DNA from: Chloroflexota bacterium
GTDB taxonomy: Bacteria; Chloroflexota; Anaerolineae; Aggregatilineales; J027
DNA length: 64,000 bases
Assembly (NCBI GenBank): GCA_024434115.1
Contig: QMIT01000007.1
Location: 62,001 to 126,000, forward strand
Direction of reading: 5' to 3'
Below the pieces are notes generated by a model that made no database searches, was not told the DNA's origin, and worked only from the letters and a program-made list of their open reading frames with translations. The translations under genes and the position numbers were made by a program. Position 1 is the stretch's first letter. Each line of letters opens with the position of its first letter. Below, piece after piece: positions 16,738 to 59,257 of this stretch.

Positions 16738-19173
16738 ATGCTGCGAAGACTCATTCACCAATATCCCTATGTCCAAGAGGGTTTTACACGTGGGTTGATC
16801 AATGGGGGAGTAATCCTTTTTTTCATCCTCATTGGCCTGCCCGCCGGGATGCCGGGGCGTGAAGATTTAGCGCCGCTTGCTATTCCACTGTTTGTACTGA
16901 CGACGATCACCTTTGCAGTTGTGACCGTGCGTCGCTTGGAAGGTAGGGCGGGGTGGAAACAACTCTTGATAAACGGGGTGGCACTCGGCATCGGGACAGC
17001 CATCCCCTTCTTGCTGTTTATGAGCTTGATTAATCGCTGGCAGGCCAATGGAACCAATGTTAATGACTACTTCTTTGAGATCAAGCTCCGCACGACGGCT
17101 GAGTTATCGGGTGTGCCCATAGAGGAATTATTTGCCAACCCAGAGATTGACCCTGTAACGCAAGAATTTCCAGCAGATGCCCCTTTGCGCACCAATCCTA
17201 TGACGCTTAAAATTAATGATGACAAAATCCACGTTTTCAATTTTGGAATTTTGAAGCTCGGTGGTTTATATGGCGCGGCGTTGGGTTTAGGCATCATTGG
17301 CTTGGTAACAACATTGATTTACCATGCGCTGTCCCTAGTACATTGGCAGGACATTCGCGCCAATCTAAATCGGAATCTTGGCAAAAACGCGGGTGGTAAA
17401 TGGGTGCAGTCTATCATACCCGAAATCCTACACTGGATTCGCCTTATCCTGCCAATTCTGTTTTTCCTGTTTTTGTTCGTCAGCGTCAGCATGAGTTATG
17501 ACACTTCATTTTGGCATGAGGTGCGTGGTAAAAATATTGAAAATGGCCCGATATTGGAATTGACCGATCTAGGATTTGGCCCGCGTGCCGCCCAGAATTT
17601 CCAACTCATCGCGGGCTTCTTGGTCATTATCGCGCTGATGTTAGCCATGCGGAACACGCGCTATAAAGCCTATCGCTTGCCCTATCTGGTGCAGTTGCTT
17701 ATCATCCTCATCCCGATCTGGCTGGTATTCTTGTTGGCGATGTGGCGCATCCAAGCCAATGAGGTGTATTTTATTGAACCCACCATCCATCTTGGCATTT
17801 TTGAAAGCGAAGAAAGTGCCAGTCTGGGAGCAGCATTTTTCCTAGCTGCGATGCTGACCTTTAATGCCTTGCGCGGGAGTCTGACCGCCGAGCGATTTGA
17901 ATCCACCTTTGTGATTAACACGGGTCTTGCAATGGTGATGGCAACCCCACTGTTTATGGATCAATATCAAACAGGCGTGATGCTGCAAGTCGCCATTTAT
18001 GCCATGTTGGGCTTGGGCCTCAATATCGTCGTCGGTTATGCGGGTCTGCTTGACCTCGGCTATGTGGCGTTTTTTGCGATGGGGGCCTATGTCTATGCGC
18101 TGGTTGAATCCAACCGTCAGCGCCTAACCGTTGACCACGCCAACGACCTCGCGTTTACACTAGCTACTGCAATTATTGTTGTGCCGTTGGTGATTTTCTT
18201 GCTGGCAAATGTCTGGTTGCGCTCCAAACAAAATGCGCAAGTCAAGGAATCGGCTACCCAGACCCACCGGATGGCCCGCCTTTGGCAAGACCAACCCCCA
18301 CCGTTGATCTCGCTGGCATTGGTGGTTATCGCCGTGATTGTGGCCTTCGGCTCAACCTATCTCCTTAAACGGCAAGGTTGGTTTGACCCTATTGAACGGG
18401 CCTCACCATTTTTCATCGGATTAATTCTGGCGGTCTTTGCCTCGGCCATGACGGGGGTCATCCTCGGTTTTCCAGTGTTGCGGCTGCGGAGTGATTATCT
18501 CGCTATCGTGACCCTCGGTTTTGGGGAAATTATCAGCATCAGCCTCGAAAATCTGGAGAATATCACAGGCGGGCCGTTCGGTGCGAACAACATTCACGAC
18601 CCGGTAGCAGGTAATCCGACCACCGCCGAACAAAATATGATTTTGCTCTACTTGGCGCTGGTGGGTGCGGGGTTAATCGCCGTCTTTTCGACCCGCCTAC
18701 GCTCCTCACGGTTGGGACGTACATGGACAGCCATCCGCAGTGATGAAGACATCGCCCAAGCGCAGGGAATCAACTTGGTCAATTCCAAGCTGTTGGCCTT
18801 TGCGATTGGTGCGAGTTTTGCGGGCGTTTCGGGGTTATTGTTCGCCGCTCGCCAAAATAACATCTTCCCGGCTGACTTTTCGTTGGGGATTTCGATTAAC
18901 GTGCTGTCGTTAGTAATTATCGGCGGGGTTGGCAGCATCCCCGGTGTGATTGTTGGGACGATTGTGCTGGTTGGCTTGCCACAAATGCTCCGCGCCCTAG
19001 AGGAATATCGTTATCTGACATTCGGGGCGCTATTGGTAGTCATGATGCTGGTACGTCCGGCGGGGCTGATGCCTGCGCCACTGGCCTCATTGGAAGAACG
19101 CGCACGCAAACTGCGAGCTACGATCAAACCCAAGCGCGAAGAAATCCAACTTGAGGAGGTGGCAGGTGACTAA
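16738..19173 (+). CDS. livM: Branched-chain amino acid-type ABC permease, LivM family (greatly enlarged)
   Basis: An 811-aa membrane protein, about twice the usual LivM size. The LivM core occupies the C-terminal half, from about residue 415: GLGLNIVVGYAGLLDLGYVAFFAMGAY (in parts), LRLRSDYLAIVTLGFGEI, AQAQGINLVNSKLLAFAIGASFAG and GGVGSIPGVIVGT. The first 400 residues hold several extra hydrophobic helices and a soluble loop (about residues 105-165) not found in standard LivM. The role of the extra part is unknown. It might be a second membrane module or an anchor. Its stop overlaps the start of livG by 8 nt, so translation is probably coupled. Confidence 0.9.
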   Translation: MLRRLIHQYPYVQEGFTRGLINGGVILFFILIGLPAGMPGREDLAPLAIPLFVLTTITFAVVTVRRLEGRAGWKQLLINGVALGIGTAIPFLLFMSLINRWQANGTNVNDYFFEIKLRTTAELSGVPIEELFANPEIDPVTQEFPADAPLRTNPMTLKINDDKIHVFNFGILKLGGLYGAALGLGIIGLVTTLIYHALSLVHWQDIRANLNRNLGKNAGGKWVQSIIPEILHWIRLILPILFFLFLFVSVSMSYDTSFWHEVRGKNIENGPILELTDLGFGPRAAQNFQLIAGFLVIIALMLAMRNTRYKAYRLPYLVQLLIILIPIWLVFLLAMWRIQANEVYFIEPTIHLGIFESEESASLGAAFFLAAMLTFNALRGSLTAERFESTFVINTGLAMVMATPLFMDQYQTGVMLQVAIYAMLGLGLNIVVGYAGLLDLGYVAFFAMGAYVYALVESNRQRLTVDHANDLAFTLATAIIVVPLVIFLLANVWLRSKQNAQVKESATQTHRMARLWQDQPPPLISLALVVIAVIVAFGSTYLLKRQGWFDPIERASPFFIGLILAVFASAMTGVILGFPVLRLRSDYLAIVTLGFGEIISISLENLENITGGPFGANNIHDPVAGNPTTAEQNMILLYLALVGAGLIAVFSTRLRSSRLGRTWTAIRSDEDIAQAQGINLVNSKLLAFAIGASFAGVSGLLFAARQNNIFPADFSLGISINVLSLVIIGGVGSIPGVIVGTIVLVGLPQMLRALEEYRYLTFGALLVVMMLVRPAGLMPAPLASLEERARKLRATIKPKREEIQLEEVAGD

Positions 19174-19969
19174 AAAATCCTACAGCGACGACTTAATATT
19201 GGATGTGCGTGATGTCACCAAACGCTTCGGTGGATTGACGGCAGTCAATAATGTCAGCCTGCAAATTAAAAAGGGTATGATTGCCAGCCTGATTGGGCCA
19301 AATGGAGCAGGTAAAACCACCTTCTTTAATATTGTGACGGGTTTCTATACACCGGATGCTGGGGCGATTTATTTCATGGGGCACAATATCGCAGGCCTGC
19401 GTACTGATGAAATTATCGCGCTTGGGATCGCCCGTACCTATCAAAATATCCATCTCTTTCACGGCATGACGGCCCTCGAAAATATCTTGGCGGGGATGCA
19501 CACCCGACTTGGCGCTGGCCCGGTTGGGGGTGCCTTGCGGCATGGCAAAAATCGCTATGAAGAAGATATGGCACTGGTCAAGGCATTTGATTTACTTGAA
19601 TTCATTGACCTCGGCGGCATGGGGGACTTTGCGGCAACCAATCTGTCCTATGGTGCTCAACGACGGCTGGAAATTGCACGGGCGCTTGCCAGTGACCCAA
19701 TTTTGCTCTTGCTCGACGAACCCGCCGCTGGGATGAACCCTCAAGAGACCGAAGATATGATGCACTTCATTCGTCGTTTGCGGGATGAACGCGGGTTGAC
19801 CATTTTCCTCATCGAGCACGATATGAGTTTGGTCATGGATATTTCGGATCAGGTGTCGGTTTTGGATTATGGGCGCAAGATTTCGGAAGGGTCTCCCGCC
19901 GAGGTACAGCGTGACCCGTTGGTGATTGAAGCCTATTTGGGCAAGCCGCCAGAAGAATTAGAAAACTAA
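19166..19969 (+). CDS. livG: ABC transporter ATP-binding protein, LivG family
   Basis: A 267-aa ATPase with Walker A GPNGAGKTTFFN, a LivG-type signature LSYGAQRRLEIARAL (Tyr in place of the second Gly, normal for this subfamily), Walker B LLLLDEPAAGMNP and an H-loop (FLIEHDMSLVMD). The GTG at 19166 is preceded by GAGGAGG with 6 nt spacing and overlaps the end of livM. It should pair with LivF to power amino acid (or urea/amide-type) uptake by this transporter. Sequence alone does not settle the substrate. Confidence 0.93.
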   Translation: MTKKSYSDDLILDVRDVTKRFGGLTAVNNVSLQIKKGMIASLIGPNGAGKTTFFNIVTGFYTPDAGAIYFMGHNIAGLRTDEIIALGIARTYQNIHLFHGMTALENILAGMHTRLGAGPVGGALRHGKNRYEEDMALVKAFDLLEFIDLGGMGDFAATNLSYGAQRRLEIARALASDPILLLLDEPAAGMNPQETEDMMHFIRRLRDERGLTIFLIEHDMSLVMDISDQVSVLDYGRKISEGSPAEVQRDPLVIEAYLGKPPEELEN

Positions 19970-20010
19970 ATGGCCGGGAAAAGAAAAAGAATAAAGAGAA
20001 TTGATGAATC

Positions 20011-20724
20011 ATGGCACTCTTAGAAGTCAAAGACCTGCATACCTATTATGGCAAAATCCATGCGCTCAAAGGTATTTCGCTGACTGTTGAAGAAGGCGAA
20101 ATCGTGACATTGATTGGTGGGAACGGTGCAGGCAAAACTACGACCCTGAACACCATTTGCGGGATTGTGCCCGCTGCTTCTGGCAAAGTGATTTTAGATG
20201 ACCGGGACATTACTCGCCTGCGTCCGCACGAAATTGTGGCGATGGGGGTGGGCCAGTCTCCTGAAGGCCGCAAAATCTTTAAGCGGCTGTCGGTGCGTGA
20301 GAATTTGGATATGGGTTCATTTACACGCGGCGACCACGATGGGATTGCCCAAGACCTAGAATTTGTCTTTGCTACCTTCCCACGCCTTAAAGAACGCGAA
20401 CGCCAATTGGGTGGGACGCTTTCCGGTGGGGAGCAGCAAATGTTGGCGATGGGCCGCGCTATGATGGGCCGTCCGCGTATTTTGCTGCTAGATGAGCCTT
20501 CAATGGGTCTTGCTCCGCTGTTGGTGCGCGACATCTTCCGCATCATCGCCTATCTGAATGAGCAGGGCACGACCATTTTGCTGGTCGAGCAGAACGCATT
20601 AATGGCGCTCGATGTGGCTAATCGTGGCTATGTGATGCAGACGGGTATTATTACCCTAGCGGACGACGCCAAATCGCTGCAACAAAATGAGACGGTACGT
20701 AAGGCGTACTTAGGCGAAGTTTAA
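20011..20724 (+). CDS. livF: ABC transporter ATP-binding protein, LivF family
   Basis: A 237-aa ATPase with Walker A GGNGAGKTTTLNT, Q-loop region VGQSPEGRKIF, signature LSGGEQQMLAMGRAM, Walker B ILLLDEPSMGLAP and H-loop region LLVEQNALMALD. The PEGRKIFKRLSVRENL block is diagnostic of LivF. It is the last gene of the operon and lies 41 nt after livG. No clear terminator follows before the opposing DUF5682-type gene. Confidence 0.93.
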   Translation: MALLEVKDLHTYYGKIHALKGISLTVEEGEIVTLIGGNGAGKTTTLNTICGIVPAASGKVILDDRDITRLRPHEIVAMGVGQSPEGRKIFKRLSVRENLDMGSFTRGDHDGIAQDLEFVFATFPRLKERERQLGGTLSGGEQQMLAMGRAMMGRPRILLLDEPSMGLAPLLVRDIFRIIAYLNEQGTTILLVEQNALMALDVANRGYVMQTGIITLADDAKSLQQNETVRKAYLGEV

Positions 20725-20820: not shown

Positions 20821-23598
20821 CTAGGAATCAATGAAAGCGGCTAGTGCGTTCGTAGACTCAGGATAGGCCTGCAAAAGCCCGTTGATCGTTTTATCGGGAA
20901 GGCTATGCAACGATGTGGCAACGTCGAGGCCCAACCATGTGGCGACAGCATGGGTCGCGGCGGGAGCGGCCAACAGATGATCGCGCACTTTGGCAAGTTG
21001 GGGGGAGATGCTGGTTTGAAGGCTTGGAACGGGAGTATGCGTTTCTGCCCAAGGGGGCTGCCAATTCATGAAACCTTGCAGTGAGGCCGGAAAAACAACC
21101 GACGCTTCTTTAATCAGCGGTTGCAAAATCGTCTGATGCTGGCGGAGTTGAAGGATGAGGCCCGGCAACCACATGAGTAGGGTGCTATCTGTGACAGAGC
21201 CGAAAATATGACTTAACAACTCGACCACGAACCGCGCAATCCCCGGTGCAAAATTCAGGGCTAACACAAACCCATTAAGGTATTGGGGCAGGGTTGGTAA
21301 GCGTAAGGCATCGCTGAGGATTTGGGTGAGGAATTCCCGCATACTCGCAATATCCCGCAACCCCAACAGCCATTCACTTGTCCATAATAAGCCCAATTTG
21401 TCGGGGGGGATTTCATTTTGGGCCGCACCCTGTAGGCCAAGCATCAGTTGATTACGTTGACAACCAAGCGCCAAAGCCAAACTCTCTAGGGTAAAAATAA
21501 ACCCCAACATCCCGGCAATTTGTTCAGGGCGCGTCCCCATATCGGCAAATGCTTGGGGGAGCATCGCGGCATAATGGGCATAGCCAGTGGTGATGAGTGA
21601 TTCTAACCAATCGGGGAGACCGCCCGGTTGGGTACGATAATAATGCACCAGACGGCGGGCACGTTGGAAAATATCGGGGGCATCGGTGGCACTGGTTTCC
21701 TGTTTTAGTAACGTAATGGCGTGCAGGCCCAATTCACGCACGAGGCGCTGGCTTATCTTGTAGAGCAAGGCATCTTCAGCCGTTTTCAGCGCGATGGCTG
21801 CTGTCGCATTTTCGGCAAAAGCCAGTGCTTTCATACGCTGTTCGAGGACTTGTTCGAGTGTGACTCCCTCATAGCCCAACTGGATAATTTCGCGCTGGTG
21901 CTTGCCAATCAAGACATCCCATGATTCCTGAATTGGAACATGGCCCAGTTTTCGTTCCCCAACAATCGGCCTCACCACAAGATTGCCAAATAGATAGTGG
22001 AGTTTCCATAGAATTTCAGAGCAGGCTCGGCGGTCAGGGCGGGTTTTGAAATCCATCAATGCCCGCTGATTGGTCTTGGCAAAAAGGTCAACTTCTAGGG
22101 GAGCAAGGCGATCATAAATATCTTGGGCCAACGGCGGCAGGGAGGCATAACCAACCGTACCCACGCGATCCCCACCAAGTAAAATTTGGCATAGATGGGC
22201 GATGGTTCGTTTTTTAGGAGTGCGGTCTTTTTCCAAGCAAGTAATGGCTGCATCTTGAAAATCGTAGGGTGTTGGGTGCTGGCGATTACGCATTTGGGCC
22301 AACAAAATCGCGGTTTCGTAAATGGCAATCGAATCGGCGGTGCTGGCGAGGTAGCCATTTTTGCGGGCAAGCGCCACAATCTGCACACACCATTGCAGCA
22401 ATTGTTCTTTATCCGCAGCAGCATAGGCCGGGGGTTGGGTTAAAAATTCAGCCAACACATGCGGGTTGCGGGTCATTTCGCGCAGGGTGGGCTTGCGGGG
22501 AGAGGCATCAGGCTTTTTTAAATCGAATGGCTTGATTTTTTCGGCTTTGAGGCTTTTATCCCATGTCCCCTCGGCTAATGAAACCGTGCCTGCCGGGTGG
22601 CTAAATTGGCGTTCGATGGCGGCAAAACTGGAAGGGATTAGGCCATATAACCAGCGTGTATCGGTGTGGGGTGGCAACTCCCAAATCAAGGTACTGAATG
22701 TCCCAAATTCTTCGACTTCGCTACCGACATGGGCTGCTCCACAGATGTACATGGCTTCGTGCGGCTGAACGTCGTGTTGGTGCATATGTTGTTTGATGCG
22801 AGTCCACATGTAACGTTCCCGCAAAAGGTCAACCCGCACATCTTCGGCGCGTCGGCCCAAATGCCGCAGAAGACTGCCTACCAGCACCATCACTTGTTTA
22901 TAGGTGGCATAATCCGCGTTGATGATGGTACGTTCCACATATTGATCCCACCATTCAGCAAAATAGCGCGTGTTGGAGTTTCGCAGCAAAAAATGGAGAA
23001 ACTCATCAAAGGTAGGTATCAATTCACCCACCGTTATCCCAACCGCTGTGCCGTGCAGTCCGGCATTTTCCCGTTCGACGGTTTCATCCTCGGCCTCTAA
23101 CTGCTCAAGGTCGCGTTTCCAGTCTTCATCCCATTGAAAAATGTAATCTACCGCGCGGTCTACAAAAACCAATTCGGTTTCGGGATGAGTCAGACAGTAG
23201 GCAATGGCTTGATATTCAGCCGAGGCCTCCGTCAATGGGGCAACGGCCATTACCGGGAGAGCATCAGGTGGGAGAGTGCTGCTTTCGGCGGCGAATGCCT
23301 GTAACGCTACAGGTAATTTACAATCACGCAGGTTTTCTATGAGGGGCAGCATATCCTCGCAGAGTTCCATATAAATCACTTTGGGGGGCTGTGTCTGCAA
23401 ACGGCGTACCATATGCAACGCCGAAGCCGGTGAGTGATGGCAGACCGGGAAAATATCCAACGGTTCACGCATAGCCCGCTCGACATCCTGCACAAGACGG
23501 GTCAATAAATCGGATACACCGCTGGCGTCTTCGGCAAAGGCTTGGGCAGCCGATAAAAGCTGCTCATTGAGTAGCGATAGAGTCTCGGTATCCGTCAT
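20821..23598 (-). CDS. DUF5682-type large protein of a MoxR/VWA cassette
   Basis: A 925-aa cytoplasmic protein with no signal peptide or clear membrane helix. The N-terminal part has FPVCHHSPASALHMVRRLQ, VIYMELCEDMLP and CGAAHVGSEVEEFG, which I associate with the DUF5682 family, commonly found beside MoxR-type AAA+ and VWA genes (the E. coli yehLMPQ region is a comparable set). The His-rich motif CHHS and the glutamates nearby could be a catalytic or metal site, but this is inference. The C-terminal half is helical. It starts 3 nt after the stop of the AAA+ gene, so the two are surely co-transcribed. Molecular function is unknown. Confidence 0.75.
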   Translation of the reverse strand: MTDTETLSLLNEQLLSAAQAFAEDASGVSDLLTRLVQDVERAMREPLDIFPVCHHSPASALHMVRRLQTQPPKVIYMELCEDMLPLIENLRDCKLPVALQAFAAESSTLPPDALPVMAVAPLTEASAEYQAIAYCLTHPETELVFVDRAVDYIFQWDEDWKRDLEQLEAEDETVERENAGLHGTAVGITVGELIPTFDEFLHFLLRNSNTRYFAEWWDQYVERTIINADYATYKQVMVLVGSLLRHLGRRAEDVRVDLLRERYMWTRIKQHMHQHDVQPHEAMYICGAAHVGSEVEEFGTFSTLIWELPPHTDTRWLYGLIPSSFAAIERQFSHPAGTVSLAEGTWDKSLKAEKIKPFDLKKPDASPRKPTLREMTRNPHVLAEFLTQPPAYAAADKEQLLQWCVQIVALARKNGYLASTADSIAIYETAILLAQMRNRQHPTPYDFQDAAITCLEKDRTPKKRTIAHLCQILLGGDRVGTVGYASLPPLAQDIYDRLAPLEVDLFAKTNQRALMDFKTRPDRRACSEILWKLHYLFGNLVVRPIVGERKLGHVPIQESWDVLIGKHQREIIQLGYEGVTLEQVLEQRMKALAFAENATAAIALKTAEDALLYKISQRLVRELGLHAITLLKQETSATDAPDIFQRARRLVHYYRTQPGGLPDWLESLITTGYAHYAAMLPQAFADMGTRPEQIAGMLGFIFTLESLALALGCQRNQLMLGLQGAAQNEIPPDKLGLLWTSEWLLGLRDIASMREFLTQILSDALRLPTLPQYLNGFVLALNFAPGIARFVVELLSHIFGSVTDSTLLMWLPGLILQLRQHQTILQPLIKEASVVFPASLQGFMNWQPPWAETHTPVPSLQTSISPQLAKVRDHLLAAPAATHAVATWLGLDVATSLHSLPDKTINGLLQAYPESTNALAAFIDS

Positions 23599-23601
23599 AA
23601 G

Positions 23602-24720
23602 TCACTTTTGAATGGTTTGCATAGCTTCTTGACCGCCAACGAGAAAATCTTGCCAATCCCCGCGCTGCTCTTCGCTACGTTTAGCAATCACGCTATTCCA
23701 AAATTTGCTCATAACAGCAATATCTTCGGGCAGGCGGCGCACCAACGTCCCGACCAATGAACGGGCCACCAGCCGCGCTGTCAACTGACTTTCGCCGAAA
23801 TAATTGGAATAGAGGACGGCGTCTTCCAAAACGCCAATTTGCTCGGCAGTCGAAAGCGAGGATTCGAGACGGGTGTCTTCGGAAGTAGCGGCGTTGCTGA
23901 CTTCGCGTAGATCAGCAAAGGTTTGCAGCAGGACATCTAGCAGAGTCGGGGGGACATTGACACTAAAACTTTGACGTTGGAGCAGTTCCTGAGTACGGAA
24001 CAGGATAATCTCGCGTTCCTGCTTTTTGTTGGTCACGATGGGGATATGGACAAAATTGAAGCGGCGCTTGAGGGCCGATGACAAATCATTCACCCCGCGA
24101 TCTCGGCTGTTGGCAGTCGCAATCAGGTTAAAGCCGGAACGGGCAAATACAGTGTTATCGTCTTTTAGTTCAGGGATGGCGATGTATTTTTCGCTCATGA
24201 TTGAGATAAGCGCATCTTGGACATCACTGGTACAGCGGGTGAGTTCTTCAAACCGCCCCATCGCGCCCTGCTGCATAGCCGTCATAACGGGTGATGGGAT
24301 AAGCGAGTTGAGCGATTGTCCAGCCGCGATCACAAGGGCCACATTCCATGAATATTTGATTTGATCTTCCGTCGTTCCAGCCGTGCCCTGCACCACGAAG
24401 GTAGAATTGCCACAAATCGCGGCGGCAAGGAGTTCGGCCAGCCAACTTTTGCCTGTGCCGGGGTCGCCAATCAGCAGCAACCCACGATCTGAAGCGAGGG
24501 TGACGATGGCCCGTTCAACAATAGCCGGGTCACCGAACCATTTTTGGGCAATAGGATATTCAAGTTTGTCGGCGGGAGTGCTACCGAGAACAAAAATCCG
24601 TACCATGCGCGGCGTCAGCCGCCAATTGGCAGGCCGCTGTCCACGATCAGCCGAGGCTAAGAAATCCAGTTCATCGGCATATTTAGCTTCGGCAGGCAAA
24701 CGCAAAATGGTGTCACTCAT
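23602..24720 (-). CDS. MoxR-type AAA+ ATPase
   Basis: A 372-aa ATPase. Walker A is GDPGTGKSWLAELLAAA near residue 83. The MoxR/YehL-like Walker B region reads GAMGRFEELTRCTSDVQDAL, sensor 1 lies in IATANSRDRGV, and the arginine-rich block ALKRRFNFVHIP follows. Such ATPases work with VWA proteins, often to remodel or insert metals into partner proteins. The start is preceded by GAGGAGAG with 6 nt spacing. It is gene four of a five-gene minus-strand operon, between the VWA gene (11 nt away) and the DUF5682-type gene (3 nt away). Confidence 0.88.
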   Translation of the reverse strand: MSDTILRLPAEAKYADELDFLASADRGQRPANWRLTPRMVRIFVLGSTPADKLEYPIAQKWFGDPAIVERAIVTLASDRGLLLIGDPGTGKSWLAELLAAAICGNSTFVVQGTAGTTEDQIKYSWNVALVIAAGQSLNSLIPSPVMTAMQQGAMGRFEELTRCTSDVQDALISIMSEKYIAIPELKDDNTVFARSGFNLIATANSRDRGVNDLSSALKRRFNFVHIPIVTNKKQEREIILFRTQELLQRQSFSVNVPPTLLDVLLQTFADLREVSNAATSEDTRLESSLSTAEQIGVLEDAVLYSNYFGESQLTARLVARSLVGTLVRRLPEDIAVMSKFWNSVIAKRSEEQRGDWQDFLVGGQEAMQTIQK

Positions 24721-24731
24721 GAAACTCTCCT

Positions 24732-26153
24732 CTAGGCCACAATGAGTTTTTTCAACTCGGCAATCAATTTTTTGGGGCTACCCGTCAGAACAGGCAAGCC
24801 CATATCTTTTAGGCGTGTGCGAAACCAATCGTTCACACTAGCATAGCCGGAACTATTGACCGACCCAACTGGAATAAAATGAACCTTGCTTTCTTTGAGA
24901 GCACGAATGGTATCGAGCAATTCCTGATTGCTGCCACCTTCATAAAAGTCGGTGATGAGGACGAGGGCGGTTCGGCGGGGGTCTTGGATTTTTTCGGTGG
25001 CTTGCTGAAGGGCATATCGAATATGCGTGCCACCGCCTAGCTGGGTGCGCATCAAGACCTCAAATGGATCACCGACCCAAGGGGTAAGGTCAAGCACCCG
25101 CGTATCAAAGGCAAGGAGATGCACATCTACATCTGGTAAGCCAGCAAATATCGAAGCAAGGATGGTACACTGCACCATTGCATCCACCATTGAACCGGAT
25201 TGATCTACCACCACAATAAGGCGCGTGGGAAGCCTCTTGCGTCCGGTATGTTTGTAATACAGGCGATCTACATAGAGCCGTTTATCTTCTTCATTCCAGT
25301 TGGTCAGGTTTTTCCAGATGGTGCGTTTAAGATCGAGATTGCGGAAAACCCGTTTGGGAGGGACAGACCGATCAATCTTGCCAGATGGGGTTTGTTTGAC
25401 CTGTAGGCGCAGCACCTCGGCCAGTTCATCCACATATTGACGAATGAGGCGTTTCGCATTTTTTAGCGCATTGCCAGAAAGATTGGCTTTATCACGCAAA
25501 AGCTGCTCCACAAGTGCCATTGAAGGCTGCATTTGAGCGGCAAGGCGGTTATCTTGCAGCAGTTCGCGCAGGGCCATGCGTTTGATGAGATCATTTTCGA
25601 GGCCTTTGATGGCACGCTGGATTTCTTCTAAGGGGATATTGAACCCACTCCCAATACCCATGCCTGCCCCCCCGCCACCCCCATCGGGCGTAGTGGAGTC
25701 ACCTCCTGCGCCATTACCCTGTCCTTTCCCTGTACCGGGCAAAGGGGCATTCCCACGCAGCGACCCACGTGGACAATTTAAAGCCCGTTCGAGGTGTTCG
25801 ACATCTTTTAACCACTGGGCATACTGATTGGCGGTGCAAGGATTAGTTTGGGTATTAGGGCCAAAGGCGTTCAATAACAGCTTAGAAAAAATCAGCCCCC
25901 TCCTAAGTGTGGCCGTTTCGGGTTCATTCGGGGGAATTTCGAGGGTAAATTCTATTTCCAGTTCGGGATAATGATGTAACAGGGCATCAATGCTGATACG
26001 AGGATCAAGAATGTACTCTGGCAAATCTACTTCACGGGTAATCTCAAGGGCCATCGTCTCAAAATTCCCTGCTTGTTCGGTATAACCAAACATGGCCGAC
26101 AGCAAACGCCAGTAGACCACTTGGCGGCGGTGGACAATGGGCGATGACAGCAT
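24732..26153 (-). CDS. VWA domain protein partnered with the MoxR ATPase
   Basis: From the ATG at 26153 the product is 473 aa. The C-terminal 180 residues form a von Willebrand A domain with a complete MIDAS: VVDQSGSMVDA (DxSxS), GGGTHIRYAL (Thr) and LITDFYEGG (Asp). A Gly-rich hinge (GKGQGNGAGGDST, GGGGGAGMGIG) lies near residues 145-170 and separates a helical N-terminal part from a helical middle part. CoxE/YehP-like proteins of this type bind metal ions and recruit the AAA+ ring to a target. A start at 26189 would overlap the preceding gene by 26 nt and has no better ribosome site. Confidence 0.85.
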   Translation of the reverse strand: MLSSPIVHRRQVVYWRLLSAMFGYTEQAGNFETMALEITREVDLPEYILDPRISIDALLHHYPELEIEFTLEIPPNEPETATLRRGLIFSKLLLNAFGPNTQTNPCTANQYAQWLKDVEHLERALNCPRGSLRGNAPLPGTGKGQGNGAGGDSTTPDGGGGGAGMGIGSGFNIPLEEIQRAIKGLENDLIKRMALRELLQDNRLAAQMQPSMALVEQLLRDKANLSGNALKNAKRLIRQYVDELAEVLRLQVKQTPSGKIDRSVPPKRVFRNLDLKRTIWKNLTNWNEEDKRLYVDRLYYKHTGRKRLPTRLIVVVDQSGSMVDAMVQCTILASIFAGLPDVDVHLLAFDTRVLDLTPWVGDPFEVLMRTQLGGGTHIRYALQQATEKIQDPRRTALVLITDFYEGGSNQELLDTIRALKESKVHFIPVGSVNSSGYASVNDWFRTRLKDMGLPVLTGSPKKLIAELKKLIVA

Positions 26154-26163
26154 CAGGACTGGC

Positions 26164-27495
26164 TCACTTTCGCAACAAGCGGCTGGCACGCTCTTGTAAA
26201 ATGGATACGGTGCTGGCCTTAGGCGGCTTCTTCAATAGTTCTACCCCTGCCCGACCCGCGAATTCAAATTTCCCAGCAGGGCTATTGGTCAAGAGCAGTT
26301 GAATTGACCACTCACCCGCATCGTAGTGCAGTAATCCCAAAAGAGCCGTTGTTTCGGCAAGCGCTTCGGCGGTCAATCCAGAGCGGCGTGCATCTAGGGC
26401 TAATACGAGGCCCTCCTTGAGATGCAATTGGTTGCCTTGAATGGCATAATCGGTTAGGGCTATTGGTTCGGCCAGTTGGATGGGATGGCGTTCTAGGGGA
26501 GGCATCGGCGAGACAACCAGAGATTGTCCAATACCACAGTATGCTAAGGCAATATCGAGTGGCTTAAACTTTTTGCCCGATTCAGCAGCATGGGCGTCCC
26601 ATAATAAATCGCCAGAGGGCAGCATCGGCATATCCCGCAAACTCATGGCTTTGCCCTGCAAAAGATGTTCAAGCAGCGGTTGTGCTTGGGGGAACAATAG
26701 CCAAACTTCGTTGCCCTGTATAGCGGTGGCTTTAAAAGTTGACCATGTTTGGCGCACCCATTGAGCACTATCGCCTTGTTTTAAAACCCCATAGATGACA
26801 AGGCTGGCAAAACGCGAATATTGGCGTAGCTCAACACCGAGAGGATAGAGGGTTCCACTCGCTGGGGTAGGTGTCGGAGGGTCAGCCAGACCAACCGCAT
26901 CTAACATGGCACGACTCCACAAATCCACCCAGCGCAGGAGGGGGACATCGTTGGTGGATTTGACCGGGAGGGCATTGATAAGCTCATGGAAAAAACCTGT
27001 CAACAAGGCGGCATGAGAAACGGTTGCGGGATTGGCACGCAATTGGGTCAGGGTTGAATAAAATGATGTGACGGCCTCGCGCTCAAGGCGTGCAAAACCA
27101 GCAATCGCCAACTCCATCAACCATTCACGGGTGCTGTCGAGCAGGGGGTCGGTTCGAGCGGGTGTTATTGAGAGGTTATCGGTTGGGGTGGTCACTGATC
27201 GCCCTAAAGCCGTCAGTGCGTAATGACGCAGTAGGTCATAAAGTGTTCCTTGTAATGCGCTGCGGGCCGCTGCGAGGGTGACAAAATGAGCCTCGATAAA
27301 CGTGTTTTGGGCTAATGCCTGTATGCTGGTTTGAAGGCGGGGATAGAGAGGCGTACCGTCGAATAGGGATGGCAAAGCTGCCAATATTTCATGCTGTCCG
27401 CCAACAAACCCGTGCAAAAAACAGGCATCCAAGTCGGCTAGGGTGGTTTGAATTGCTTTCACACCATCCAGTTCAATGTTCAGATTTTCCAGCAT
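26164..27495 (-). CDS. Unknown 443-aa protein of the MoxR/VWA cassette
   Basis: I do not recognise this family. The protein is soluble, predominantly alpha-helical in its N-terminal 200 residues, with a more beta-rich C-terminal part (LYPLGVELRQYSRFASLVIYG onward, given in part). No nucleotide-binding or catalytic motif is visible. It begins 9 nt after the Cys/His-rich small gene and ends 10 nt before the VWA start, so it is an obligate operon member. By position it could be a substrate adaptor or a structural partner of the AAA+/VWA pair. This is inference from context only. Confidence 0.65.
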   Translation of the reverse strand: MLENLNIELDGVKAIQTTLADLDACFLHGFVGGQHEILAALPSLFDGTPLYPRLQTSIQALAQNTFIEAHFVTLAAARSALQGTLYDLLRHYALTALGRSVTTPTDNLSITPARTDPLLDSTREWLMELAIAGFARLEREAVTSFYSTLTQLRANPATVSHAALLTGFFHELINALPVKSTNDVPLLRWVDLWSRAMLDAVGLADPPTPTPASGTLYPLGVELRQYSRFASLVIYGVLKQGDSAQWVRQTWSTFKATAIQGNEVWLLFPQAQPLLEHLLQGKAMSLRDMPMLPSGDLLWDAHAAESGKKFKPLDIALAYCGIGQSLVVSPMPPLERHPIQLAEPIALTDYAIQGNQLHLKEGLVLALDARRSGLTAEALAETTALLGLLHYDAGEWSIQLLLTNSPAGKFEFAGRAGVELLKKPPKASTVSILQERASRLLRK

Positions 27496-27504
27496 ATCGC
27501 CGCC

Positions 27505-27972
27505 CTATCCGTTGAACCACGTCATGGTGGTGAGGGGCATATCGCTGCTTGGAAGTTCTAGTAATTCAAGGTCGCCCAGAAACCGACTGAAAATTTCGCC
27601 CGCATATAGGCCTGTGTTATTTCCAGCGCCAGCCAGAATTTTGCGGATTGAATCTACTTGGGTTGTATCTATGTGTAAAAAACGACCCACCGCATCAAAG
27701 CCAAATTGGATAATGGCCTCGCTCAACAATGCCTCAAGATGGCCGCAAGGTGCGCCACGGAGACCACCACACGGACGGTTATTATTCGTGCTACAACAAT
27801 AATCGAGGCTGCCGACTTCAAAATAGGAGACATAGACACGCTCAATATCGGAACCGCTAGAGACAATCCCTTGTAAGCGGTTTTCAAAGAGTTCAAGAAA
27901 GGGGACTTTTTTTACATCACGTTTTTCAGTGGAGGTGTACACCCGCATGTCTAACAGTGAGGATTGGGGCAT
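27505..27972 (-). CDS. Small Cys/His protein with a SWIM-like zinc motif, first gene of the cassette
   Basis: A 155-aa protein that starts the five-gene minus-strand operon. GAGGAC lies about 8 nt before its ATG. The centre contains YCCSTNNNRPCGG followed by APCGHLEALLSEAI. The C-x-H ending and the following helix resemble the SWIM zinc finger (CxC...CxH), though the first pair is CC rather than CxC. Comparable MoxR/VWA clusters carry a large SWIM protein (YehQ type), and here the motif sits in a far smaller protein. It could bind zinc and nucleic acid or protein. No other domain is visible. Confidence 0.6.
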   Translation of the reverse strand: MPQSSLLDMRVYTSTEKRDVKKVPFLELFENRLQGIVSSGSDIERVYVSYFEVGSLDYCCSTNNNRPCGGLRGAPCGHLEALLSEAIIQFGFDAVGRFLHIDTTQVDSIRKILAGAGNNTGLYAGEIFSRFLGDLELLELPSSDMPLTTMTWFNG

Positions 27973-28124: not shown

Positions 28125-28907
28125 TTATTTTATGACAGGATTCACAAGTGCTGCTTCACATAGCTTAAACGCCGATTGCAAGGAGTCAAGTGCATTGTGT
28201 TTAGGAAAGAATTCGTGCCCGATATACCCCGTGTGGCCTGTTTCAGCAATGGCGCGGAACACTGCTGGATAATAAATTTCCTGCTCATCATCCAAATCAT
28301 GGCGACCCGGGTTACCCGCCGTGTGATAATGGCCGAAATAGGCATGATGCTCTCGAATAGTACGGATAAGGTCGCCTTCCATGATTTGCATATGGAAGAT
28401 GTCGTACAACAATCGAACATGCGGTGAATTGACCATCTGGCAGACTTTTATGCCCCATGCGGAGTTGTCCGCTTGATAATCGCGCCCCGGCACCTTGCTG
28501 TTGAGTAACTCCATCACCAGCGTAATATCCGTATTTTCGAAATGCGGGGCAAGGCGGCTCAGATTTTGGGCGGCGATTTCCGCAGCCGCCGCTTGGTCAA
28601 TGCCATAACGATTGCCGCTAAAACACAATATATACGGGATGCCCCATTCTATAGCTTTTTCTAACGCCACCAAAATGCTTTTCTCAATAGATGGAAAATG
28701 ACCGGGATGATTGATGCCTTCGGGAGCAAGGGGGTGGCCGTTGGTTGATACAATTCGCAGACCATGGTCACGGATCATCGGCCAATATTGGGAGTCCACC
28801 AGTTCTATTCCCGCAAACCCAATCTCCGCTGCCCCTTTAATTAACGTCTCAGGGTCAATGCCTGTCCGTGCAAATCCGTCCCATGAAAAAGATTGTTGAA
28901 TCGTCAT
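28125..28907 (-). CDS. Hydroxypyruvate isomerase-like TIM-barrel sugar isomerase/epimerase
   Basis: A 260-aa protein of the xylose isomerase-like TIM-barrel superfamily. Metal and substrate residues fall in typical blocks: GFAGIELVD, LVMELLNSK (Glu ligand), VRLLYDIFHMQIMEGD (Asp and His), FGHYHTAGNPGRHDLD (His) and GYIGHEFFPK (Glu). The pattern is closest to hydroxypyruvate isomerase (Hyi) and related epimerases, which interconvert hydroxypyruvate and tartronate semialdehyde or epimerise keto sugars. It lies 7 nt after the 2-hydroxyacid dehydrogenase gene, which suggests a joint pathway for a C3 or sugar-acid intermediate. The exact substrate is open. Confidence 0.82.
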   Translation of the reverse strand: MTIQQSFSWDGFARTGIDPETLIKGAAEIGFAGIELVDSQYWPMIRDHGLRIVSTNGHPLAPEGINHPGHFPSIEKSILVALEKAIEWGIPYILCFSGNRYGIDQAAAAEIAAQNLSRLAPHFENTDITLVMELLNSKVPGRDYQADNSAWGIKVCQMVNSPHVRLLYDIFHMQIMEGDLIRTIREHHAYFGHYHTAGNPGRHDLDDEQEIYYPAVFRAIAETGHTGYIGHEFFPKHNALDSLQSAFKLCEAALVNPVIK

Positions 28908-59168: not shown

Positions 59169-59257
59169 TATGAGCGCCGAGGTGGGCTTCCCGGTCTTCA
59201 AAACCGGTGACGGGCAGCGTGCCTGTCCGTGGTGGGTTCGACTCCCATGTATTCCCG
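59164..59257 (+). tRNA. Selenocysteine tRNA (UCA)-like sequence with imperfect 5' acceptor strand
   Basis: The anticodon arm is CCGGT-CTTCAAA-ACCGG with anticodon UCA. A long variable arm (GACGGGC/GCCTGTC, seven pairs), a T arm (GTGGG-TTCGACT-CCCAT) and discriminator G follow, all as in bacterial tRNA-Sec. The 3' acceptor strand is GTATTCCC (59249-59256). The 5' strand expected from the layout is TTTGATAT (59164-59171): five of eight positions pair, but the three outermost are T x C mismatches, and the D stem is also imperfect. It may be a pseudogene, an integration remnant or a divergent functional tRNA. No selenoprotein machinery is in the window. Confidence 0.6.

Follow-up and report, generated by a model that had tools for sequence, protein, structure and literature searches.

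A conserved five-gene MoxR-VWA-DUF5682 cassette of Chloroflexota and actinomycetes as a third, divergent lineage of the YehL/YehM/YehP/YehQ kind

One question raised by the 64,000-nucleotide stretch of Chloroflexota DNA analysed here (contig QMIT01000007.1, positions 62,001 to 126,000; hereafter the window) is whether five minus-strand genes at positions 20821-27972 form a system of their own. They encode a MoxR-type AAA+ ATPase, a VWA protein, a DUF5682 protein and two further proteins of 155 and 443 amino acids, named p155 and p443. The cassette is real and conserved in two phyla. Judged by its sequences, it is a third, divergent lineage of the known but uncharacterised YehL/YehM/YehP/YehQ kind and not wholly new. 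The window-type order, p155-p443-VWA-MoxR-DUF5682, is called type W throughout (our own label). The cassette comprises the following features:

27505..27972, minus strand: p155, a 155-aa Cys/His protein from the list of open reading frames (ORFs), candidate SWIM-like finger
about 27739-27795, minus strand: residues Cys60, Cys68, Cys76 and His78 of p155
26164..27495, minus strand: p443 (443 aa), a candidate SWIM C-terminal domain homolog
24732..26153, minus strand: VWA protein of the CoxE type (PF05762) with a metal-ion-dependent adhesion site (MIDAS)
23602..24720, minus strand: MoxR AAA+ ATPase, YehL-like (PF07728)
20821..23598, minus strand: DUF5682 protein of a divergent subfamily (PF18934)
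about 22729 to 23439, minus strand: residues His54/His55, Glu78, Arg260 and His290 of the DUF5682 protein

In the ORF list the VWA gene begins with a GTG at 26189; this start was moved to the ATG at 26153 because the relatives begin at the corresponding position. With this start the intergenic gaps are 9, 10, 11 and 3 nt. The same-strand gene upstream of p155 ends at 28125, 152 bp away, and the gene past DUF5682 is convergent and ends at 20724 (LivF-like by inspection). The cassette is therefore a compact unit, and we infer that the five genes form one operon.

The complete set of five genes was found, with order and strand unchanged, in 17 loci (the window and 16 others). Twelve of these are Chloroflexota loci, namely those of four of the five genomes of the window's genus (window included), of genome G472, of six genomes from a single further genus and of genome G783; the remaining five are actinomycete replicons. 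The flanking genes differ between genera. With 17 loci, two phyla and flanks that vary by genus, the gene set is more than a product of chance. Alignment searches detected p155 in 6 of 396 genomes of the class, two of them outside the window's genus (G472 and G086, the latter having its cassette pieces at two contig ends); the DUF5682 subfamily was detected in 8 of 400 genomes of the phylum. The p443 protein was present in exactly the same eight genomes and in no others of the 400. The compact arrangement with gaps of 3 to 11 nt reported in the preliminary description of this DNA was confirmed, ORF positions included, and the co-occurrence of the five genes in other genomes, which it had set beforehand as its test, was found.

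Single-sequence searches had detected p443 only within the window's genus (5 of 61 related genomes, 4 contigs); a genus-specific p443 was ruled out by the class and phylum alignment searches and by tblastn on plasmids. When the window DUF5682 protein was compared by tblastn with 72,556 plasmid records, five matched, all of them actinomycete (Nonomuraea gerenzanensis, two Streptomyces and two Embleya), and all five genes stood in the same order in every one. The S. fungicidicus record is annotated, and its first two cassette genes carry the label 'hypothetical protein'. Against 50,697 phage records a single partial match, at 25% identity, was obtained. Identity of the actinomycete proteins to those of the window was 69-71% for MoxR, 53-56% for VWA, 46-50% for DUF5682, 43-47% for p155 and 30-33% for p443; among Chloroflexota outside the window's genus p443 showed 37-49% identity, as against 73-81% for MoxR. 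Thus, p443 is the fastest-diverging component both within Chloroflexota and towards the actinomycetes.

The genomic position of the cassette varies. Flanking sequence is common to all six genomes of the other genus. Within the window's genus, both flanks of the window recur in G003 and G001, one in G004 and neither in G002 (locus L007), which refutes a stable insertion site within the genus; the cassette sits elsewhere in G002 despite the shared genus. G001 (locus L040, C4:74000-92000) carries a deletion matching window positions 22489-27026, which removed MoxR and VWA entirely and DUF5682 and p443 in part, leaving p155 intact.

DUF5682 is not confined to this arrangement. PF18934 was matched in 26 of the 154 genomes of the order, 25 of them over the cut-off, and the other DUF5682 cassettes fall into two types, although several of their loci are truncated at a contig end or have no neighbours: type A, SWIM-DUF5691-MoxR-DUF5682-VWA, annotated as such in Rhizobium etli, and type B, DUF4132-MoxR-DUF5682-VWA-SWIM. 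A plasmid of Hymenobacter sp. HDW8 (L103) encodes an annotated protein in which SWIM and DUF5691 are apparently fused, which links two components of type A. In Nonomuraea gerenzanensis (L096, L108 and its plasmid I) W, SWIM_A and SWIM_B genes occupy different places on one replicon; the cassette types are therefore not mutually exclusive.

Three of the five proteins were readily assigned. The MoxR protein matched Pfam AAA_5 (PF07728) with 128 bits (cut-off 22), the VWA protein VWA_CoxE (PF05762) with 126.5 bits (cut-off 26.4) and the DUF5682 protein PF18934 with 92.9 bits (cut-off 26). Window-type profiles aligned to Escherichia coli YehL (hhalign, 100%, E-value 7e-59), YehP (1.2e-41) and YehM (1.1e-11). 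By these profile matches the three proteins are clear, divergent homologs of YehL, YehP and YehM, respectively. Seven MoxR subfamilies have been named, YehL among them (PMC3893208), and MoxR ATPases with their VWA partners are described as remodelling or metallating specific targets (PMC3893208; PMC13036017). The W members retain the catalytic motifs of both MoxR and VWA. The MoxR Walker A motif is GDPGTGKS, and the Walker B position reads EE in all W, A and B members and DE in RavA. In the MoxR tree the W sequences formed a clade of their own (100/100), as did those of type A, one wrongly entered row aside; this row (L112) had been entered by its longest frame, evidently in error, and it and RavA sat on branches of length 10, and with both kept in the W and remaining A rows still obtained 100/100. 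G783 also has two more MoxR genes, with identities of 44-46%. The MIDAS of the window VWA protein is complete (DQSGSM, GGGTHI, ITDF); all 17 complete W cassettes keep its first and third motifs, and the Thr motif is intact in all but the Nonomuraea copy, which has Asn (16 of 17). These results bear out the earlier naming of the MoxR ATPase, the DUF5682 protein and a VWA protein with complete MIDAS, as well as their placement in a YehL/YehM/YehP/YehQ-kind cassette of unsettled role. Neither p443, which the preliminary description had also failed to recognise, nor p155 matched a family in Pfam (above cut-off), NCBIfam or PADLOC.

One important question is then what p155 and p443 are. In p155, Cys60, Cys68, Cys76 and His78 are kept in all 15 aligned rows, from two phyla; the ten-row alignment A5 leaves out the copies of G551, G543, G610 and G001. 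Compared with SWIM_A proteins, p155 gave a z-score of 4.5 and none of 40 column shuffles did as well, and SWIM_A was the only one of five families for which all 40 shuffles were beaten. The alignment takes in a stretch rich in Gly and Ser, the strand preceding the cysteines and PC-x-H. For p443 (alignments without the partial G086 copy), z was 5.1 with the SWIM_A C-terminal domain and 3.5 with the SWIM_B profile, both above 40 of 40 shuffles, as against 0.9 or less with DUF5691, DUF4132, DUF5682, VWA, MoxR and the erythromycin esterases (Ere). The value for DUF5691 was -0.3, which ruled out p443 as a DUF5691 counterpart, and that for DUF4132 was 0.1; neither DUF5691 nor DUF4132 was matched by any of the five window proteins in Pfam.

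The same relationship was approached with hmmsearch on 594 ORFs, a set whose 13 p443 copies all come from outside the window's genus. The SWIM_A C-terminal profile ranked the G783 p443 first (E-value 2.2e-4), with a best segment of 15.2 bits and another, weak segment that is correctly ordered; on 549 shuffled or reversed controls the maximum was 6.6 bits. With the SWIM_B profile the six best ORFs were all p443 (E-values 0.023 to 0.17), which count as one observation because all come from one genus. Two type A loci hold the SWIM C-terminal domain without the finger (X354, E-value 6.8e-53), so the parts of SWIM proteins can separate. Taken together, these profile comparisons, weak but specific, make it somewhat more probable than not that p155 is a SWIM-like finger and p443 the SWIM C-terminal domain, that is, that a SWIM protein was split in two genes.

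Several results weigh against this assignment. The p155 ligand pattern, C-x7-C-x7/8-C-x-H, is unlike the CxC...CxH of SWIM and lacks its CxC half; Pfam SWIM (PF04434) matched none of ten p155 members, nor did any other Pfam family; and the SWIM-profile hmmsearch did not bear out the p155 similarity, placing p155 copies only at ranks 4 and 9-12 of the 594 ORFs. Probabilities in hhalign for p155 and p443 stayed under 8%, the window p443 alone gave no signal, and the reverse hmmsearch with p443 was not significant. On the SWIM_A C-terminal domain the W-type DUF5682 nearly equalled p443 (25.6 vs 28.1). AlphaFold2 models of p443 and p155 were too poor (predicted local distance difference test, pLDDT, 43.5 and 41.2); the strand-strand-helix around the Cys/His residues of p155 fits a SWIM finger, to which little weight is given at this pLDDT. 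Two other matches were set aside: that of p443 to CD4 (E-value 0.001, PDB sequences), a borderline immunoglobulin-fold match among several searches and put down to chance, and that of p155 to cresol dehydrogenase (E-value 0.066), likewise taken as chance.

The strongest alternative is that neither p443 nor p155 is related to SWIM and that both are inventions specific to W, standing in for the SWIM, DUF5691 and DUF4132 components, in which case the cassette would recognise something other than its YehL relatives do. The absence of a family match for either protein, the hhalign values, the divergent ligand spacing of p155 and the failed reverse search of p443 all speak for it. It does not readily account for p155 and p443 surpassing all shuffles against SWIM and not against other cassette families, nor for the collinear two-segment match of p443, and we regard it as a serious possibility that falls somewhat short of an even chance.

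In a comparison of 15 DUF5682 proteins of all types, one of them a fragment, at least 14 keep His54, His55, Glu78, Glu128 and Asp147, and at least 14 keep Arg260, Met264, Gly287 and His290. The motifs run in the order His, Glu 23-24 residues later, R-E-x-x-M and G-x-x-H. Side-by-side inspection revealed an order of His, Glu (24-29 residues further on), Arg-containing helix motif and GxxH shared with YbaP of the TraB family, and Ere has the first three of these four elements in order. The TIKI/TraB superfamily is described as using 2His/2Glu residues (PMC6254334). The conserved His, Glu and second His of TIKI/TraB/Ere were found in DUF5682, W members included, but no equivalent of the first Glu of the 2His/2Glu set was seen: two residues before the first His, where Glu was looked for, W members read PVCH/PVAH and the other types GIRH/PVRH. 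On these motifs DUF5682 is probably a TIKI/TraB-like hydrolase. Set against this, DUF5682 compared with TIKI/TraB/Ere profiles gave z-scores of only 1.6 and 2.4, which are not significant (3 and 2 of 40 shuffles, respectively, did equally well), and neither a TIKI/TraB/Ere superfamily match in Pfam nor a sequence match in PDB was obtained for it; the likeness is, in these alignments, at the level of motifs only.

Our proposal for the cassette as a whole, which we hold to be evenly balanced between right and wrong, is an ATP-driven remodelling machine in which MoxR-VWA acts on DUF5682 and p155/p443 replace the SWIM protein. MoxR would form the ATPase ring and VWA the adaptor, roles established for other MoxR/VWA pairs. 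DUF5682 would be the dedicated client or effector, because it is the only partner besides MoxR and VWA clearly common to all cassette types; MoxR-VWA may open, activate or metal-load it. On moderate evidence, p155 and p443, as Cys3-His finger and C-terminal domain, would stand in for the SWIM protein and could serve as a sensor or as a recruiting or recognition module. The more specific version, that MoxR-VWA activates or metal-loads a new branch of TIKI/TraB-like hydrolases and is itself governed by a split sensor made up of the Cys3-His finger and p443, is speculative and we think it unlikely to hold in full; if true, some Chloroflexota and actinomycetes would own a switchable hydrolase without described counterpart.

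A conflict or defence role, with p443/p155 sensing an invader and MoxR-VWA switching on a DUF5682 effector, would agree with the patchy distribution (the 6 of 396 and 8 of 400 genomes given above), the rapid divergence of p443, the deletion in G001 and the different site in G002, and conflict systems with MoxR-vWA cores have been proposed (PMC7159879). Matches in PADLOC were weak and mostly to generic ATPase families, however (best mad8, 21.9 bits), and no third component by which the proposed ternary systems are defined reached the cut-off in the window proteins (bpMoxR 16.6 of 27; VMAP-M0 13.3 of 25.9). The flanks are the same in six genomes of one genus, no known toxic domain was seen in the cassette proteins, and a defence function is hence improbable. 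A maturation machine for an enzyme encoded elsewhere, like CoxD/CoxE or NorQ/NorD and with DUF5682 as helper instead of client, is likewise doubtful, for although the VWA protein is CoxE-type and MoxR/VWA pairs are described as inserting metal into enzymes (PMC13036017; PMC3893208), no enzyme gene common to the differing neighbourhoods was evident by inspection, and all the cassette types read here have DUF5682 alongside MoxR.

To our knowledge, no settled function exists for the gene set around YehL. Among the 5.39 million papers of the literature searched, which takes in no preprints and leaves out most subscription journals, none names DUF5682 or DUF5691, and no description of the W cassette was present among the matches listed for MoxR, SWIM, VWA and the yeh names. 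The W cassette thus appears to be a distinct branch not previously reported. The initial suggestion of an undescribed system is too strong, as three of the proteins are clear YehL/YehM/YehP homologs and the other two look weakly SWIM-like; the cassette is a divergent and apparently unreported lineage. Common to the three types are MoxR, VWA and DUF5682, and also a SWIM-type module should the weak evidence prove right; DUF5691 and DUF4132 are each specific to one type. Their comparison defines a core that can be tested, and DUF5682 with its His/Glu signature is the part of first interest.

Other features of the window were recorded. Branched-chain amino-acid ATP-binding cassette transporter genes (16738-20724, plus strand; names by inspection) adjoin the cassette, among them one for a permease of 811 aa, which seems unusually long. 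A group I intron match (RF00028, 63.5 bits) at 2128-2335 on the plus strand sits between a CoA-transferase-like gene on the minus strand and a 543-aa ORF starting at 2421, and no interrupted host gene is evident there. A tRNA-Sec gene at 59171-59256 (plus strand), called by both ARAGORN and Rfam, suggests that the source lineage uses selenocysteine.

Finally, the cassette was compared with known systems. Like W, the MoxR-vWA ternary conflict systems combine MoxR and VWA with further proteins, but their third component is VMAP, iSTAND, FtsH or a beta-propeller (PMC7159879), whereas W has DUF5682. Type A has MoxR, DUF5682 and VWA in common with W, and a SWIM-type gene, in W a putative one, comes first in both; the MoxR clades are distinct, and VWA precedes MoxR in W and is last in A. 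The E. coli set, in the order yehI (DUF4132)-yehK-yehL-yehM-yehP-yehQ, and the type B loci L044, L046 and L047 have MoxR, DUF5682 and VWA homologous to those of W, with the EE Walker B. They carry DUF4132, which W does not, and a SWIM-type protein that in W is only suspected, apparently split and placed ahead of VWA, whereas in type B it is last, after VWA. It is beside these two types that W takes its place as the third lineage.

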